In this document: positions 20,409 through 32,296 of the stretch, in pieces
How the letters are laid out: each line of letters opens with the position of its first letter
Position numbering within the stretch: position 1 is the stretch's first letter
Origin: an archaeon
Lineage (GTDB): Archaea; Nanobdellota; Nanobdellia; Woesearchaeales; UBA11576
Direction: 5' to 3'
Assembly: GCA_020052935.1 (NCBI GenBank)
Contig: JAGVOD010000015.1
Span: forward strand, 1 to 33,045
Length of the DNA stretch: 33,045 bases
Position numbers and translations under genes: made by a program
Notes under the pieces: model-generated
The model's database searches: none
What the model saw: only the letters and a program-made list of their open reading frames with translations
Told to the model about the DNA's origin: nothing

Positions 20409-22937
20409 ATGAACCCTGAAACAAGCCTGAAAGTCGCGGAAGCCATACAAGACGACGTCAACAAAGGCATCGTACGCATAGACTCCACGCTGATGCACCA
20501 GATAGCAGTCAGGAGCGGAGACATCGTCGAGATAGAAGGCGAACGCAAGACAGTAGGCATAGTAGACAGGGCATACCCTGGAGATATAGGCCTCAACATC
20601 ATCCGCATGGACGGCATCCTGAGAAGGAACGCCAAGACAGGAATCGGGGAAGTAGTATCTGTCAGGAAAGCGGAAGTGAAGCCCGCGAAGAAAGTCATCA
20701 TCGCGCCCGCGCGAAGAGGAATAATGATACGCGCACCGCCCGAGCTGTTCCAGCAAGGGCTGCTGGGAAGGGCAGTAGTGAAGGGAGACATCGTATCCCT
20801 CGGCGGGACAAAACGACGCAGGACAACGATGAGCGAAAGCCCCTTCGAGGACATATTCTCAATACTCGACGAGAGCATGATGGGCTTCGGCCTGGGAGAC
20901 ATAAAGTTCGTAGTCGCAGACACGCTGCCGAAAGGAGCTGTATTGATCTCAAACACCACAGAAGTGGTGTTCAACCCAGAGGCAGTAGAGCTCAAGGAAG
21001 AGGAAAAGGCCCTCGAAGTCACATACGAGGATATCGGCGGACTGAGGGATGAGATAAAGAAGATACGAGAGATGGTAGAGCTGCCGCTGAAGCACCCGGA
21101 GATATTCGAACGCCTAGGCATAGACGCGCCGAAGGGAGTCCTGCTGCACGGGCCGCCAGGAACAGGAAAGACACTGCTCGCAAAAGCAGTCGCGAACGAG
21201 ACAAACTCAAACTTCTCGCTGATAAACGGGCCAGAGATAATGTCAAAATATTACGGACAATCGGAAGAGAACCTGAGGAAGAAGTTCGAGGACGCGCAGA
21301 AGAACGCGCCTTCAATCATATTCATCGACGAGATAGACGCAATCGCCACAAAACGCGAAGAGACCAAAGGAGAGGTCGAAAGACGCGTGGTGGCGCAGCT
21401 GCTCGCACTCATGGACGGACTGCAGTCACGCGGCCGCGTTGTAGTAATAGCTGCATCAAACGTCCCGCACCTGCTCGACCCTGCGCTGAGAAGGCCTGGA
21501 AGGTTCGACAGGGAGATAGAGATAGGAGTGCCGGGCAAGGAAGGAAGACTGAAAATACTCGAAATCCACACACGAAACATGCCGCTCGAACTAGCAATAA
21601 AGAAAGCATACCTTGAAAACAGGATAAAGAACCTGCAGAAAGAGAATGAAGAGAAAGAAAGGATGCTCATCACTGAAGAAAACGAAGATATCAAAATCAG
21701 GACGAGACGAGCCATCCAAGAAAATAAAGAAACACTCAAAGATTACCAGGAACTTTTCGCAAAGCTCACCAATGATGATGCCAAAAATAAAGAAGTACTC
21801 GACAAACACGCACAAGAGCCGGAAAAATACAGGAAGGTATTCCTCGGAGGGATGCTTGACGAGATCGCAAGCATAACGCACGGATTTGTCGGTGCAGACC
21901 TGTCAGCGTTATGCAAAGAAGCGGCGATGATAGTCCTGAGAAATGTCCTTCCAGACCTACAGCTGGAAAAAGACGAGCCGATACCTCCCGAAGTCCTCAA
22001 GAAACTCATCGTAAAAACCAATGACTTCATGGAAGCGCTCAAGACCGTCAGGCCAAGTGCCATGCGCGAAGTGCTCGTCGAGATACCAAACGTCAAATGG
22101 ACAGATGTCGGCGGGCTTGACGACGTAAAGCAGGAGCTCAAGGAAGCAGTTGAGTGGCCGCTCAAGAACCCAGAGGTATTCACGCGCATGGGAGTTACAC
22201 CGCCGAAAGGGATATTGCTCTACGGAGCGCCAGGGACAGGAAAGACGCTGCTCGCAAAAGCGGTCGCGAAGGAATCAGAAGCGAACTTCATACTCATAAA
22301 AGGCCCGGAACTGCTATCGAAATGGGTCGGCGAATCAGAGAAAGCAGTCAGGAAGATATTCGAGAAGGCAAGGCAGACCTCGCCGTCGATAATATTCTTC
22401 GACGAAATCGACTCGCTCGCGCCAAGAAGGAGCGCAGCAGACGACAACAAAGTGACTGAGAGGGTAGTGAACCAGCTGCTCACAGAGATAGACGGGCTCG
22501 AAGAGCTGCACAACGTCGTGATAATCGGAGCCACAAACAGGCCAGACATACTCGATACAGCATTACTGAGGCCTGGAAGGTTCGACCGAATCATACTCGT
22601 CGGGGCGCCAGACGAAAAGACAAGGGAGAAGATACTCGAGATACACACAAAAAGCATGCCCCTATCCAAGGACGTTAACATAAAAGAGCTGGCGAAGAAG
22701 ACAGAAGGCTACGCAGGAGCAGACATAGCGAGCCTGTGCAGGGAATCTGCAATAATCGCGCTCAGGAAAGATATGACTGCCAAAGAAGTCGGCAAGAAAG
22801 ACTTCGATGAGGCGCTGCTGAAAGTAAGAGCGTCGATAACCAAGGAGATAGAAGACTCATACAAGATGCTCAAAGACCAGTTCACGAGGGCACGAGCCAA
22901 AGAGATGAAAGAGGCAAGGCCAAGCTATTTCATGTGA
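20409..22937 (+). CDS. Cdc48/VAT-type AAA+ ATPase with insertion in the D1 lid
   Basis: An 842-residue hexameric unfoldase of the Cdc48/p97/VAT family, which unfolds proteins for degradation. The N-terminal double-psi barrel and beta domain span about residues 1-190. D1 has Walker A GPPGTGKT at 248-255 and Walker B IIFIDEID from 303. D2 has GAPGTGKT at 606-613 and IIFFDEID from 661. Arginine-finger regions ([15 protein letters not shown]) are intact in both. Where homologues have about 10 residues between IHTRNMPL and the THGFVGADL helix, this protein has about 88 extra charged residues (about 394-481) predicted as coiled coil. The total is therefore about 100 longer than typical archaeal members. 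The C-terminus is SYFM. A lipoprotein gene follows after 6 bp. Confidence 0.95.
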
Positions 22938-23375: not shown

Positions 23376-23387
23376 GAGAGGATGAAC

Positions 23388-24680
23388 ATGGAAAAACCAG
23401 GCGACAAGGTCAAGATCATCTGCGAGAAAGAAGAATACGCGGGCGTGCTCGTCGACAAGAAGAAGGACACGACAGTCGTGAAGCTCGACAACGGCTACAA
23501 CATAGGCGTAGAGAACAAGAAGATAAAGAAGATAGAGGTTGTCGAGAAAGGGAAGGAGCTCGAGATAAAGTACTCTGCCAAGGCAGATAAGAAGAAAGGC
23601 CTGCCCAACATCTCGATACTCCACACCGGCGGAACCATCGCCTCGAAAGTCGACTACAGGACAGGGGCAGTGTATAGCTCATTCAAGCCAGAGGACCTAC
23701 TCGGACTCTTCCCAGAGCTCGGCGAGATAGCCAACTTCGAATCAACGCTAATAGCGAACATGTGGTCTGACGACCTGAGGTTCAAGCATTTCTCAGTCAT
23801 AGCCGAAGCGATAGAGAAAGAGGCGAAGAAAGGCGTAGAAGGAGTCATCGTCGGCATGGGCACAGACAACCTCGCAGTAGCCGCCGCGGCACTATCATTC
23901 ATCATAGAAGACTGCCCGATGCCGGTCATCCTGGTAGGGGCGCAAAGAAGCAGCGACCGCGGAAGCAGCGACGCAGCCATGAACCTCATCTGCGCAGCAG
24001 AATTCATAGCCAAGTCAGACTTCTCCGGAGTGGCCATATGCATGCATGATTATACCAGCGACGACAAGTGCGTCATACTTCCAGCTTGCAAGACAAAGAA
24101 GCTGCACAGCTCCAGAAGAGATGCATTCAAGCCGGTCAATGACTCTGCCATCGCGAGGATAGACTACAAGACAAGGAAGATAGAGACAATAGGGAAATAC
24201 CTGAAGAAAGACAAGAAAAAATCCCTCAAGATAAGGCCGAAGCTCGAAGAGAAAGTCGGACTATTGAAGATACATGTCAACATGTTCCCAGAGCAATTCA
24301 GCTTCTTCAAGGGATACAAAGGGCTCGTGATAGAAGGCACCGGGCTCGGACACACACCCGGACAGGTGCCGAACGAGTGGTGCAAAATCCATGAGAACAT
24401 ATATCCTGCGATAAAAAAAGTAACAGACTCGGGCTGCGTCGTGGTGATGACAACGAACTGCATCAACGGCAGGGTACAGCTGAATGTCTACGACAAGGGA
24501 CGCGACCTGCAGAAGCTTGGCGTAGTCAGCGGAGAAGACATGCTCGCAGAGACAGCGCTCGTCAAGCTATCTTGGTTGCTAGGCAACTACAAGTCAGACG
24601 AGGCGAAGAAGCTCATCGGGCAGAACCTGCGCGGAGAGATAAACCCCAGGATAAGCGAGAAAGAATTCTCAGCAGAATGA
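23388..24680 (+). CDS. gatD: Glutamyl-tRNA(Gln) amidotransferase subunit D
   Basis: About 430 residues. GatD is the asparaginase-like glutaminase that supplies ammonia to GatE for converting Glu-tRNA(Gln) to Gln-tRNA(Gln), the archaeal route. In the 23382 numbering, an N-terminal SH3-like domain (about 1-65) precedes the asparaginase fold. T85 in TGGTIAS, T161-D162 in GMGTDN and K240 in KKLHSSRRDAF match the four catalytic residues. The usual GTDTM motif reads GTDNL. GAQRSSDRGSSDAAMNL and TTNCINGRV are further family marks. GAGAGG directly abuts an ATG at 23382, so ATG 23388 has the better Shine-Dalgarno spacing. The partner GatE domain is encoded just downstream. Confidence 0.95.
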   Translation: MEKPGDKVKIICEKEEYAGVLVDKKKDTTVVKLDNGYNIGVENKKIKKIEVVEKGKELEIKYSAKADKKKGLPNISILHTGGTIASKVDYRTGAVYSSFKPEDLLGLFPELGEIANFESTLIANMWSDDLRFKHFSVIAEAIEKEAKKGVEGVIVGMGTDNLAVAAAALSFIIEDCPMPVILVGAQRSSDRGSSDAAMNLICAAEFIAKSDFSGVAICMHDYTSDDKCVILPACKTKKLHSSRRDAFKPVNDSAIARIDYKTRKIETIGKYLKKDKKKSLKIRPKLEEKVGLLKIHVNMFPEQFSFFKGYKGLVIEGTGLGHTPGQVPNEWCKIHENIYPAIKKVTDSGCVVVMTTNCINGRVQLNVYDKGRDLQKLGVVSGEDMLAETALVKLSWLLGNYKSDEAKKLIGQNLRGEINPRISEKEFSAE

Positions 24681-24739
24681 TCACCATAGATGCTCTGGCC
24701 AAAAAGACATCCAATAATCCAGATAAGACAGGTTAAAGC

Positions 24740-27700
24740 ATGTTAAAGTTCTTGAACACAGAGACATTCGAAGAGAAGATCGGCGAGACCAGGGTAGTCA
24801 TAAAGATAGTCTACGGCAGATACACACAAGACGCGTTCAGCTTCGACATACAGCTCCTCGAACTGATAAACTCAAAATCGCTGAGGAACGCGAAACAGCT
24901 CCCCGAGGAAGTCAAGAAGAAGATAAAGAAAGTGGAGAAGTACGAGATATTCTTCAGGAAAGACCTCCACAAACAGCTCAAGAAAGGCATGCTCCTCGAC
25001 AAGAACTACAAGAAGTTCATCAAGTTCACATCAAAGACACTGGCGCAGACCGCCATAGACGTGCTCAAAGACATGCCAAAGATACTCGCAGGGCAGAAAA
25101 AAGTCCTGCTGAAGATAGACATAGTCAACAAATACCTCGGAGACGGCCTGGCAGCGCACGACGCAGAACACTCCACACAGAACAAGATATTCCTCGACCT
25201 GAGCGGATCCGCGCTGACTGGGAGAGCTTACGCGCCATGGCTCTGCAAGAAGAAGATAGACCTCGCGTTCTTCGACAAGCTGCTCAGCCACGAGCTCCAG
25301 CACCACCTCGAACACCTAAGAGGACTATACAAGGCAGAGGACAAGGCGCAGGAGAGGATAGAGAAGTTCATGAAGCTCAACCCTGCAAGATGGAGCGCGG
25401 GATTCCCTCTATTGTTTGAACTGCTCTGCAACCTCTACACAGAAGGCATCGCCGGATTCAGGGAAAGAAGACGCGCCAAAGCAGTGATGTTCGACCTGGA
25501 CCACATCGACAAGCTCGTGAAATCGCTGGAAAGGATAGCAGACGCCAAGACCAAAGAAGATGCAGAAGAGATACTAGAGAAGGAATTCAGGCCGCACAGC
25601 AACACAGGAGAGTACTACCTCGGCCACCTTATGTGCTACTTCATCGGCCTAAACATACTCAAGAACAGCAGGGAATCTAAGCAGATAGAGATAATATCAC
25701 CAAAGAAGAAGATCAAGCCCGAAGAGCTGAACGAATTCCTGCTCAAGAACAAGAAAGCCAAGATGGAACAGCTCGACGCAAAATCATATGAAGACGCGTA
25801 CACGCTGCTGAGCGGAGTGAAGAACCACACAGAATTCCTCAAGATGTACACAGATGCATGCAGCGGCCTGGAACTCACAAAGCCAGTCATGTTCCTAGAC
25901 CAGGAAGCATACAAGCGACTGATAGCAAAGGCGACAAAACGCTACAAAGAACAGCCGGCCGCGGAAGCAGGTGAAAAATTTATAAAGACAGAAGAAATAA
26001 GGAGCGACATGGAAAAGCTCGACTATGAAAGGATAGGGCTGAAGTGCGGCATCGAGATACACCAGAGACTAGACACGCACAAGCTGTTCTGCGAATGCCC
26101 CTCCGTGATGATAGAAGACGAATCAAAGACAGACTTCAAGAAGATTATCAGGGAGCTACGCGCAGTGGCAGGAGAGCTGGGAGACATAGACGTCGCCGCA
26201 AGGCACGAGATGGAAAAATCAGCATACTTCATCTATCATTATTATCCTTCAACAAACTGCCTTGTGGAACTGGATGAAGAGCCACCGCATCCTATGAACA
26301 CTGAAGCGCTGCGGACAGTGCTGCAGGTGTCCAAGATGCTGGACGCGCACATCGTGGATGAAGTCCAGGTGATGAGGAAGACCGTGGTGAATGGTTCGAA
26401 CACATCAGGATTCCAGAGGACAGCGCTCGTCGCAGTCAATGGGCAGCTTAATGTCGACGGCGCGAGAATAGGCGTGCCGACAATCTCTATCGAAGAAGAG
26501 GCAGCAAAAGACATAACAAAAGGAGTAGACAAGGACGGCAGGCAGTTCGTCGCTTACGGCCTCGACAGGCTCGGGATACCGCTCATCGAGATAGGCACAG
26601 ACCCAGACATAAAGACGCCAGAACAGTGCATGAAAGTCGCGGAGCACATAGGCATGATACTACGCTCTACAGGAAAAGTGGCGCGAGGACTCGGGACGAT
26701 AAGGCAGGACGTCAACGTATCTGTACGCGATGGGTCGCGGATAGAGATAAAGGGGGCGCAAGACCTAAAGATGATACCGACGCTCGTCGAATACGAAGCA
26801 AGGAGGCAATTATCGCTGCTCGAGACGAAACGAGAGCTCGAGAAGAGGAAACCAGAATTCGGGAAAAGCAAATCAAAAGATCTTACTTCTGCCTTAAAGA
26901 ATACAGAATGCAAATTCGTGAATAAGGCGATAGCATCCGGATCAGTCGCGCTGGGATTCACACTACCTGGTTTTGCTGGACTGCTTGGGAAGGAGACACA
27001 GCCAGGAAAAAGAGTCGGAACAGAACTATCTGACTATACCAAGGCAAAGACCGGCATCGGAGGGATGATACACTCTGATGAAGACCTCAAGAAGTACAAC
27101 TTCAGCGAAAAAGAGATAGAAGAAGTGAAGAAAGAGCTGTCTGTCAAGGACGAGGGGTTCGCGATAATAGTCGCTGAGAAGAACACTGCTGAATCTGCGA
27201 TGAAACACGTCATTGAACGCGCGAAAGCATGCCTTTCAGGCGTGCCACGCGAAGTCAGGAAGGCAAACCCCGACGGCACTACGACTTACATGCGACCGAT
27301 GCCTGGCGCTGCACGTATGTACCCAGAGACAGACATCCCGCCGATAAAACCAGACGTGAAAGGCATCGAGAAGGTCGAGCTACTGACTGAGAAGAAGGAA
27401 AGGTTCAAGGAGATAGGACTGGCAGAGGATTTAGCACGCGACATATCCAAGTCAGGCAAGAACTCTATTTTCGAAGGATTTGTCGAGAAATTCCCAAATG
27501 TAAAGGCCGCGTTCATAGCAGAGACGATGATATCGATGCCGAAGAATATCAAGAGAAAATACGACGTCGACATCTCCATGCTGAAAGACTCTGACTTCGA
27601 GAAGATATTCTCGCTGCTTAACGACGGAAAGATATCACGCGACAGCATCGAGGAGATCATGCTGAAGACATGCAAAGGAGAGAAGGTCGATTACTCCAAG

Positions 27701-27865
27701 TATGCTCCTATGAAGGACTCAGAGATAGAAGAAGAGCTCAGGAAGATAATAAAGGAATCGAAAGAGCTGGAGTTCAACGCCCTCGTCGGAAAAGCCATGG
27801 GAACACTCAAAGGACGCGCAGAAGGCAAGAAGATAATAGAGATGCTGAAGAGGATGAAGAGCTAA
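24740..27865 (+). CDS. gatE: Zincin-like domain fused to glutamyl-tRNA(Gln) amidotransferase subunit E
   Basis: One uninterrupted frame of 1041 codons. Residues 424-1041 (618 aa) are a full-length GatE: MEKLDYERIGLKCGIEIHQR, KLFCECPS, VDEVQVMRKTVVNGSN, GLGTIRQDVNVS, an AspRS-like insertion, PGAARMYPETDIPP, and the C-terminal tail domain. GatE phosphorylates and amidates Glu-tRNA(Gln) using ammonia from GatD. Normal GatE begins with 'MxYExxGLKxGxEIHQ', i.e. at M424. Residues 1-423 are not part of known GatE. They hold HELQH at 184-188 (HEXXH) with E235 in YTEGIAGF as candidate third zinc ligand, a gluzincin-like layout. The family is unrecognised. An internal TATA box and GGAG lie at the GatE start, so a separate GatE may also be made. 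See findings. Confidence 0.9.
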   Translation: MLKFLNTETFEEKIGETRVVIKIVYGRYTQDAFSFDIQLLELINSKSLRNAKQLPEEVKKKIKKVEKYEIFFRKDLHKQLKKGMLLDKNYKKFIKFTSKTLAQTAIDVLKDMPKILAGQKKVLLKIDIVNKYLGDGLAAHDAEHSTQNKIFLDLSGSALTGRAYAPWLCKKKIDLAFFDKLLSHELQHHLEHLRGLYKAEDKAQERIEKFMKLNPARWSAGFPLLFELLCNLYTEGIAGFRERRRAKAVMFDLDHIDKLVKSLERIADAKTKEDAEEILEKEFRPHSNTGEYYLGHLMCYFIGLNILKNSRESKQIEIISPKKKIKPEELNEFLLKNKKAKMEQLDAKSYEDAYTLLSGVKNHTEFLKMYTDACSGLELTKPVMFLDQEAYKRLIAKATKRYKEQPAAEAGEKFIKTEEIRSDMEKLDYERIGLKCGIEIHQRLDTHKLFCECPSVMIEDESKTDFKKIIRELRAVAGELGDIDVAARHEMEKSAYFIYHYYPSTNCLVELDEEPPHPMNTEALRTVLQVSKMLDAHIVDEVQVMRKTVVNGSNTSGFQRTALVAVNGQLNVDGARIGVPTISIEEEAAKDITKGVDKDGRQFVAYGLDRLGIPLIEIGTDPDIKTPEQCMKVAEHIGMILRSTGKVARGLGTIRQDVNVSVRDGSRIEIKGAQDLKMIPTLVEYEARRQLSLLETKRELEKRKPEFGKSKSKDLTSALKNTECKFVNKAIASGSVALGFTLPGFAGLLGKETQPGKRVGTELSDYTKAKTGIGGMIHSDEDLKKYNFSEKEIEEVKKELSVKDEGFAIIVAEKNTAESAMKHVIERAKACLSGVPREVRKANPDGTTTYMRPMPGAARMYPETDIPPIKPDVKGIEKVELLTEKKERFKEIGLAEDLARDISKSGKNSIFEGFVEKFPNVKAAFIAETMISMPKNIKRKYDVDISMLKDSDFEKIFSLLNDGKISRDSIEEIMLKTCKGEKVDYSKYAPMKDSEIEEELRKIIKESKELEFNALVGKAMGTLKGRAEGKKIIEMLKRMKS
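25979..26004 (+). promoter_or_regulatory. Internal TATA box and Shine-Dalgarno site before the GatE domain
   Basis: TTTATAAA at 25979-25986 is centred 26.5 nt before an in-frame ATG at 26009, and AAGGAG (25999-26004) is 4 nt before that ATG. The ATG is exactly where GatE proteins normally begin. The spacing equals that of other promoters in this window. Confidence 0.5.
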
Positions 27866-31431: not shown

Positions 31432-31570
31432 CGCGGCTGAGGGGATTTGAACCCCCGACCTACTGCTTAGGAGGCAGATGCGCACTCGGCAGATACCTAC
31501 AGAGTTTCGCGCTTTTTGGCGTAAGCCAAAACTCCTAATGGCGCACGTATCCAGGCTGCGCTACAGCCGC
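31432..31570 (-). tRNA. tRNA-Arg (anticodon CCT) with D-arm intron
   Basis: The acceptor arms GCGGCTG (31570-31564) and CAGCCGC (31439-31433) pair fully, with discriminator G at 31432 and no encoded CCA. The T arm is GGGGG-TTCAAAT-CCCCT. The anticodon loop CTCCTAA has anticodon CCT at 31469-31471 and an intact CTGC/GCAG stem. The anticodon loop is uninterrupted. The extra bases lie between D-loop GGATA and the D-stem 3' strand GCGC: removing about 64 nt (31484-31547) leaves a 75-nt tRNA with a perfect GCGC/GCGC D stem. GTGCGC occurs at both junctions, so the exact splice points are ambiguous by a few bases. The 5' exon overlaps the LAGLIDADG gene. Confidence 0.88.
31484..31547 (-). other. Non-canonical tRNA intron (about position 21/22)
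   Basis: About 61-64 nt, containing a stable hairpin (TTTTGGC-TTAC-GCCAAAA) and flanked by GTGCGC on both sides. I could not draw a perfect bulge-helix-bulge motif; the self-complementary GCGC of the two repeats could form its central helix. The stop codon of the LAGLIDADG gene lies in this intron. Confidence 0.6.
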
Positions 31571-32296
31571 ATCTAAACGATTTAAAAGCAGACTCGCTCG
31601 TTTTGCTTTATGCTCTCCGAAGAAACCGACTTCATTTATAAATCTTATTATGTCCGCCCTTTTCCGCATCCTAAGCTCCCAAGTTTCAGAAATATAGTCA
31701 GAATTCGGCGATTTAGCCAATCTCCTGTATGGATTCAAAGTAATAACATTAAAAGTCAATAATGCTTCTCGTATCTCTTCGATGAAGGATTTATCTTTGA
31801 GAGTTATATCTACAAAAGACTGTTTCACTGCAAATGCATCTTTTGGTAAAGTTCCGTCAGCATCAAATAAACCTCGAAGGTACCATACCAATGCCGAATC
31901 ACATCCTTTAATCATTGAAGGGATTGATAAATCTTTTTTCACTCCAACACAAATCTTAAAGACATTCCTTAAAAATTTGTGAATATCCACACTCCCTATT
32001 TCCAATGTATAAACAACTTTTTTGCTCAGCACGGGAAATCTTCTACGAATGTTTCCAGACACACCAAATAATTCAATGTTTATGTCATTAATCAAATTCA
32101 TTTGGTCTAAGTTATCATCTGTGAAATCTATTCTCTTAAGATTTGATTCTAAACAACCGTCGCCCTGTAGATAACCGACATAATATGCCAGCTTTGGCGT
32201 GAGAAATTTGGGAATGAATACCTTCTTGTTCTTAATAGTGGTTGGATAATAATCTAATGTTACCAGCCTCGCTTCCGGAATCCATTGTTTAGTCAT
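31535..32296 (-). CDS. LAGLIDADG homing endonuclease overlapping tRNA-Arg
   Basis: A 253-residue double-motif LAGLIDADG endonuclease. Motif 1 is LAYYVGYLQGDGC (about 36-48) and motif 2 is LVWYLRGLFDADGT (about 136-149); D46 and D147 are the catalytic acids. The C-terminal domain with KRADIIRFINEVGFFGEHK is usual for archaeal intron-associated enzymes. Both motifs look intact, so it may be active. The last residues (AAVAQPGYVRH) are encoded by the 5' exon of tRNA-Arg(CCT), and the stop codon lies in the tRNA intron. A TATA box (about 32317-32325) is 25 nt before the ATG, so it has its own leaderless promoter. It is AT-richer than its surroundings, consistent with mobility. Confidence 0.9.
   Translation of the reverse strand: MTKQWIPEARLVTLDYYPTTIKNKKVFIPKFLTPKLAYYVGYLQGDGCLESNLKRIDFTDDNLDQMNLINDINIELFGVSGNIRRRFPVLSKKVVYTLEIGSVDIHKFLRNVFKICVGVKKDLSIPSMIKGCDSALVWYLRGLFDADGTLPKDAFAVKQSFVDITLKDKSFIEEIREALLTFNVITLNPYRRLAKSPNSDYISETWELRMRKRADIIRFINEVGFFGEHKAKRASLLLNRLDAAVAQPGYVRH

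Follow-up and report, generated by a model that had tools for sequence, protein, structure and literature searches.

The reading frame that ends with gatE at this locus raises the question of whether a tRNA-amidotransferase subunit carries a zinc peptidase as an additional domain, or whether two separate genes have come to share one frame. The preliminary description of the DNA, made from its letters alone, had offered both a coupling of translation quality to proteolysis and the capture of an unrelated gene upstream of gatE. The second option fits the present results best. The upstream part is probably a captured, stand-alone gluzincin-like gene without a stop codon of its own, which shares its frame with gatE while GatE is mainly made on its own.

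One frame with two recognisable parts

The stretch of DNA analysed here (the window; 33,045 nucleotides) comes from a 1.64-Mb draft genome (117 contigs, completeness 85%). A single open frame on the + strand, 24740–27865, encodes 1041 amino acids without an internal stop and consists of a 423-residue N-terminal region followed by full-length GatE (residues 424–1041), as the preliminary description had reported. Codon usage is native across the whole frame, junction included, which argues for real coding sequence rather than a spurious ORF. The features of the locus are as follows.

23382–24680, + strand: gatD (432 amino acids), with GatD_N and asparaginase domains (NCBIfam NF003217, 484 bits; Pfam PF18195, PF00710 and PF17763)
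24677–24736, + strand: 19-codon ORF, MITIDALAKKTSNNPDKTG followed by a stop; probable 5′ remnant of an MJ1316-domain (PF04457) gene, judged from a short match
24740–25972, + strand: metallopeptidase-like protein (residues 1–411), equal to the entire unfused homologues of about 400 amino acids and modelled with AlphaFold2
25289–25303, + strand: HELQH (residues 184–188), candidate zinc-binding and catalytic motif, with its H-E-H columns in 17 of 20 homologues
25442–25453, + strand: E235-G-I-A (ExxA), with E235 as candidate third zinc ligand from conservation in 20 aligned homologues
25972–25974, + strand: TGA, one frame off, at the end point of the closest unfused homologues; putative ancestral stop
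25973–25987, + strand: BRE/TATA-like element GAAAAATTTATAAAG, probable gatE promoter, with its TATA at −30 of the GatE ATG
25999–26004, + strand: Shine–Dalgarno-like AAGGAG, 4 nt upstream of the GatE ATG
26009–27865, + strand: gatE (618 amino acids), Glu-tRNA(Gln) amidotransferase subunit E, with its own ATG (NCBIfam NF003107 and TIGR00134; Pfam GatB_N, GAD and GatB_Yqey)

The GatE part matches NF003107 at 699.2 bits (cut-off 456) over profile positions 1–622 of 630 and TIGR00134 at 628.6 bits (cut-off 319.6), and contains the three Pfam domains GatB_N, GAD and GatB_Yqey. It begins where the GatE of relatives begins (MAEKLDY.. / MEKLDY..) and is 74% identical to a same-genus GatE. Among the matches listed from 338 genomes of the order, the other GatE frames span 353–731 codons, compared with 1041–1042 here.

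A separate set of GatE-like frames (L037–L044) is shorter, at about 473–513 codons. These frames match window GatE residues 1 to about 290 and about 412–617, skipping most of the region of about 290–412 where the GAD domain lies, and in L037, L040, L042 and L043 gatD lies next to them or nearby. From their sequences, they may be GatE subunits without a GAD domain.

The junction with gatE

The last 12 codons before GatE (25973–26008, residues 412–423) lie outside the confidently modelled domain and are encoded by the promoter-like and Shine–Dalgarno-like stretch ahead of the GatE ATG. A promoter matrix, built from ten other gene starts in the window with gatE excluded, gave GAAAAATTTATAAAG a score of 14.6, the highest of the 27 gene starts in the window and one reached by none of 22,089 coding positions. 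As the training sites were chosen by a TATA-like pattern, this score reflects how closely a site resembles that pattern and does not gauge promoter activity.

Homologues follow the frame up to about residue 405, and the two closest of them end at about window residue 411, with a loose alignment of the tail. Since these 12 codons, from the domain end to the GatE ATG, hold no stop, the peptidase-like gene runs into gatE. The preliminary description had singled out 25900–26009 as the place where a stop might have been missed; in the given sequence, this region is open in frame, and the other frames contain TGA at 25972, TAA at 25983 and TAA at 25998. With stops present in both other frames, a single-base error could hide an in-frame stop. 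The frame would be explained by a change of one base upstream of 25972, either natural or an error; a stop lost through substitution, or an inserted gene fragment lacking its stop, would be expected to look the same.

It is conceivable, at odds of roughly one in three, that the joined frame is a sequencing or assembly error, in which a base is missing at about 25950–25972 or the contig is chimeric, and that two normal genes are present with a stop near 25972. The fragmented, incomplete state of the draft genome is consistent with such an error, as is the position of the off-frame TGA, directly before the promoter-like element and at the end of the closest homologues. However, the frame agrees with its homologues almost to the junction, and a natural indel or substitution accounts for the same facts.

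An unrecognised family with a gluzincin-type motif

The N-terminal region had been described as an unrecognised domain with HELQH at residues 184–188 and E235 in the context TEGIAGF. The motif is as stated, with E235 lying within NLYTEGIAGF, and the domain is indeed unrecognised by sequence: searches of Pfam, NCBIfam and the PDB returned no credible sequence match, nor did a profile of 11 family members against PDB sequences. Nothing credible was found in PHROGs, PADLOC, plasmids, phages or viral contigs. A T4_Rnl1_C match (E 0.008) was rejected, being under its cut-off and confined to one family member.

The H-E-H and E columns are retained in 17 of 20 aligned homologues sharing 14–42% identity, including one (L062) in which a single residue is inserted within the motif. 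Across the same alignment, E235 is conserved at 90% or more and G236 is invariant. Furthermore, HExxH recurs in distant family members (E-values up to 5e-7). This conservation and recurrence indicate that HELQH is more than a chance occurrence. The three remaining homologues (L006, L010 and L061) no longer carry HExxH and are possibly inactive derivatives, to judge from their sequences.

When 371 genomes of the phylum were searched with the single sequence, 10 genomes other than the source genome gave matches; there, the unfused homologues are mostly ORFs of 400–454 codons. With a profile, matches, distant ones included, were obtained in 40 of 353 genomes of the order. The closest homologues are 412-amino acid proteins of family f10 with 40–42% identity, and three unfused homologues belong to records of Candidatus Woesearchaeota (two) and to one titled 'archaeon'. 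Family homologues occur as unfused ORFs of about 400–430 amino acids at unrelated genomic places; those in related genomes are not fused to GatE. By these sequence comparisons, the N-terminal region is a real, uncharacterised protein family, scattered in Woesearchaeota-related genomes, and its sequence features are those of gluzincins. No conserved gene neighbourhood was seen by eye in 14 loci of family members, and no transmembrane segment was evident by eye in the sequence of the N-terminal protein. A phage or mobile origin is not supported, given the lack of matches in viral collections, the native codon usage and the absence of flanking repeats.

Some distant members reside in larger frames. 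In L075 (2681–5965, − strand), the family domain ends a 1095-codon frame that has a papain-like (Peptidase_C1) region at its start. HExxH members in L076, L079 and L080 lie in frames of 629–702 codons, whose N-terminal regions have no credible Pfam match.

Predicted structure and the question of peptidase activity

An AlphaFold2 model of all 423 residues (pLDDT 85, pTM 0.82) places HELQH on a helix spanning residues 175–193 and E235 on a helix spanning residues 221–242, with pLDDT below 50 for residues 408–423. The first 30 Foldseek matches of the full model are all M1 or M61 peptidases (probability up to 0.96), although the best E-value is 0.015, none is below 0.001 and TM-scores do not exceed 0.28. 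Many of the 30 are repeat entries of IRAP and are thus not independent supports. When folded alone, the catalytic core gave a poorer model (pTM 0.61) and no better fold match; selecase (4qhg) led at E 0.67, and jannalysin (4jix) was listed at E 6.6.

Profile comparison with hhalign gave P 0.09 against archaeal M48 (PF01435), over 20 columns of the HExxH segment only, and a non-significant P 0.017 against Peptidase_MA_2 (PF13485), over 15 columns at the EGIA motif; neither family was matched in the Pfam search. In sum, residues 1–423 match no Pfam or NCBIfam family, and M1 and M61 folds lead weakly in the structure search. The gluzincin-type layout claimed in the preliminary description is supported by the conserved HExxH…E and suggested by the leading M1/M61 folds, though no fold match reaches an E-value below 0.001. 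From sequence and model, the N-terminal protein appears gluzincin-like, and it is placed in no named family.

Alternatively, HExxH may be structural, or the protein may have another zinc-dependent or non-catalytic role. The three motif-less members, the lack of a significant profile match to M48 or Peptidase_MA_2 and the modest fold E-values would be compatible with such a protein. Retention of the H, E, H and E columns in 17 of 20 members as divergent as 14–42% identity, the HExxH of distant members and the place of M1 and M61 gluzincins at the head of the fold matches nevertheless make this reading unlikely.

The gatD–gatE interval and its neighbourhood

At the same-genus loci L016 and L017, gatD and gatE instead flank an 80-amino acid MJ1316-domain ORF, identified in L017 as PF04457 (E 1.2e-18), and the end of this gene overlaps the gatE start. 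The gene is missing from the window, and a search run without a positive control found no copy elsewhere in the genome. In the window, the 19-codon ORF beginning MITI shares bases with the gatD stop, and 3 nt separate its end from the ATG at 24740. It reads MITIDALAKKTSNNPDKTG and a stop, comparable to the start MITIEELINKIR in L017 and to the corresponding slot in L016, and is, on this short sequence comparison, a probable 5′ remnant of the MJ1316-domain gene.

In a phylogenetic tree, the peptidase-like gene of the window groups with members from family f10, and the inner three-row clade has support of 96/94. A single-sequence search did not find the gene in the other genomes of family f1, and the profile search gave distant matches in three f1 genomes (G005, G007 and G008). 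In two genomes of one other family, G047 (L119, contig C39) and G496 (L118, contig C6), a homologue lies about 2–3.5 kb downstream of gatE on the same strand. This proximity is weak support for a link, as the two genomes share a family and the arrangement was noticed after the fact; it leaves some room for a functional connection and, to that extent, counts against simple capture. In G047, the gatD–gatE interval is occupied by a 176-amino acid protein without a Pfam match (L119, 7686–8213, − strand).

Two further genes of the window were noted by eye or by composition. A CDC48/VAT-type AAA ATPase at 20409–22937 contains a long, charged, coiled-coil-like insertion at roughly residues 375–480, in or after the first AAA module. 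A LAGLIDADG-domain protein at 31535–32296 is the lowest G+C gene of the window (GC3 0.34) and is possibly mobile. A link between the peptidase-like gene and the upstream CDC48 gene, an idea taken from Wss1–Cdc48 (PMC4559962), was set aside because G047 likewise has an AAA ATPase fragment upstream of gatD and yet no peptidase gene in its gatD–gatE interval.

The fused product could also be a selected bifunctional protein, in which a GatE-tethered peptidase works on substrates associated with ribosomes or tRNA, or else serves to regulate the amidotransferase. Such a protein would accord with the continuous frame and its native codon usage over the junction, with the homologues near gatE in two genomes of another family and with the larger proteins of distant family members, one of them following a papain-like domain. 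However, the fusion occurs in one draft genome only among the GatE matches listed, family homologues are free of GatE, and the low-confidence tail of the domain holds the promoter-like element and Shine–Dalgarno sequence of gatE. A selected bifunctional protein is improbable on this evidence, and the coupling of translation quality to proteolysis that the preliminary description had entertained is likewise not supported. Also improbable is a mixed state, in which a GatE of 1041 residues, bearing a zinc peptidase of an undescribed gluzincin family, exists beside ordinary GatE from the internal promoter, so that some GatDE complexes would carry a protease.

Origin and expression of the joined genes

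Since the two genes are separate in relatives and gatE is preceded by a promoter-like signal of its own, the join looks like a gene-boundary accident. Taken together, GatE frame lengths, the neighbourhood and the promoter and Shine–Dalgarno signals in the sequence indicate that the gene boundary is still present. It is proposed that a stand-alone gene for a probably cytosolic, gluzincin-like zinc peptidase, from a family patchily distributed in Woesearchaeota-related genomes, replaced the MJ1316-domain gene. The missing stop would represent a stop loss, whether a true mutation or a base error in the assembly. In the encoded protein, zinc would be held by H184, H188 and E235, with E185 activating water in the manner of gluzincins.

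The captured gene is probably expressed as part of the gatD message. GatE would mainly be made unfused, through its own TATA promoter (25973–25987), if used, and through internal initiation at the Shine–Dalgarno sequence on the gatD-operon message. The full-length protein of 1041 amino acids would then be a read-through by-product or a tolerated variant, some of which would be made if the assembly is right. One observation counts against a wholly unfused GatE: the overlap of the remnant ORF with the gatD stop, and its end 3 nt before the ATG at 24740, suggest that the peptidase-like gene is translated, and translation of a gene without a stop would yield the fusion protein.

The fusion is probably without biological importance, and a 'peptidase–GatE' annotation drawn from the frame should not be propagated. 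The main value of the locus lies in the unannotated gluzincin-like family that it reveals, whose HExxH/E[GA] proteins of about 400 residues are patchy in Woesearchaeota-related genomes and include active-looking and motif-lost members, larger relatives and one member behind a papain-like domain. To our knowledge, protein turnover and host interactions in Woesearchaeota-related archaea are poorly known, and the family is a testable candidate protease family in these organisms.

Comparison with known systems

Within the archaeal GatDE amidotransferase, residues 424–1041 correspond to a normal GatE, whereas an N-terminal extension of such size is found in no other frame among the matches listed. 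The M1 (IRAP, ERAP1/2 and aminopeptidase N) and M61 peptidases, gluzincins of clan MA, provide the lead Foldseek matches and share with the present family an HExxH and, on a helix further along, a motif of the E-G-x-A type. Unlike them, family members comprise about 400 amino acids in all, identity does not exceed 12%, and no fold E-value falls below 0.001. M1 peptidases have about 18 residues between HExxH and the Glu (HExxH-x18-E); this spacing is not seen in the family, where HELQH and E235 are separated by 46 residues here and the motifs by 43–60 in other members measured.

The minigluzincins selecase and jannalysin of M. jannaschii are likewise small HExxH proteins and weak matches of the core model, whereas members of the present family carry large additional regions at both termini. 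Wss1 and DVC1/Spartan have been grouped with the minigluzincins (PMC4559962). Gluzincins that combine HExxH with ExxA include the M48/M56, neprilysin and anthrax lethal factor families (PMC6414381), and HELQH with E235-G-I-A238 follows the same pattern. Archaeal M48 differs in that its profile alignment with the family is limited to the HExxH segment (P 0.09).

The junction itself has a counterpart in M. smegmatis, where a single-G insertion abolished the gatC stop and produced a GatC–GatA fusion that was seen by Western blot and raised mistranslation (PMC7541841). In both cases, an adjacent gene of an amidotransferase operon is joined in frame; in M. smegmatis, the upstream stop was abolished by an indel. 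Whereas GatC and GatA are subunits of one enzyme, the upstream partner of GatE here is an unrelated peptidase-like protein.
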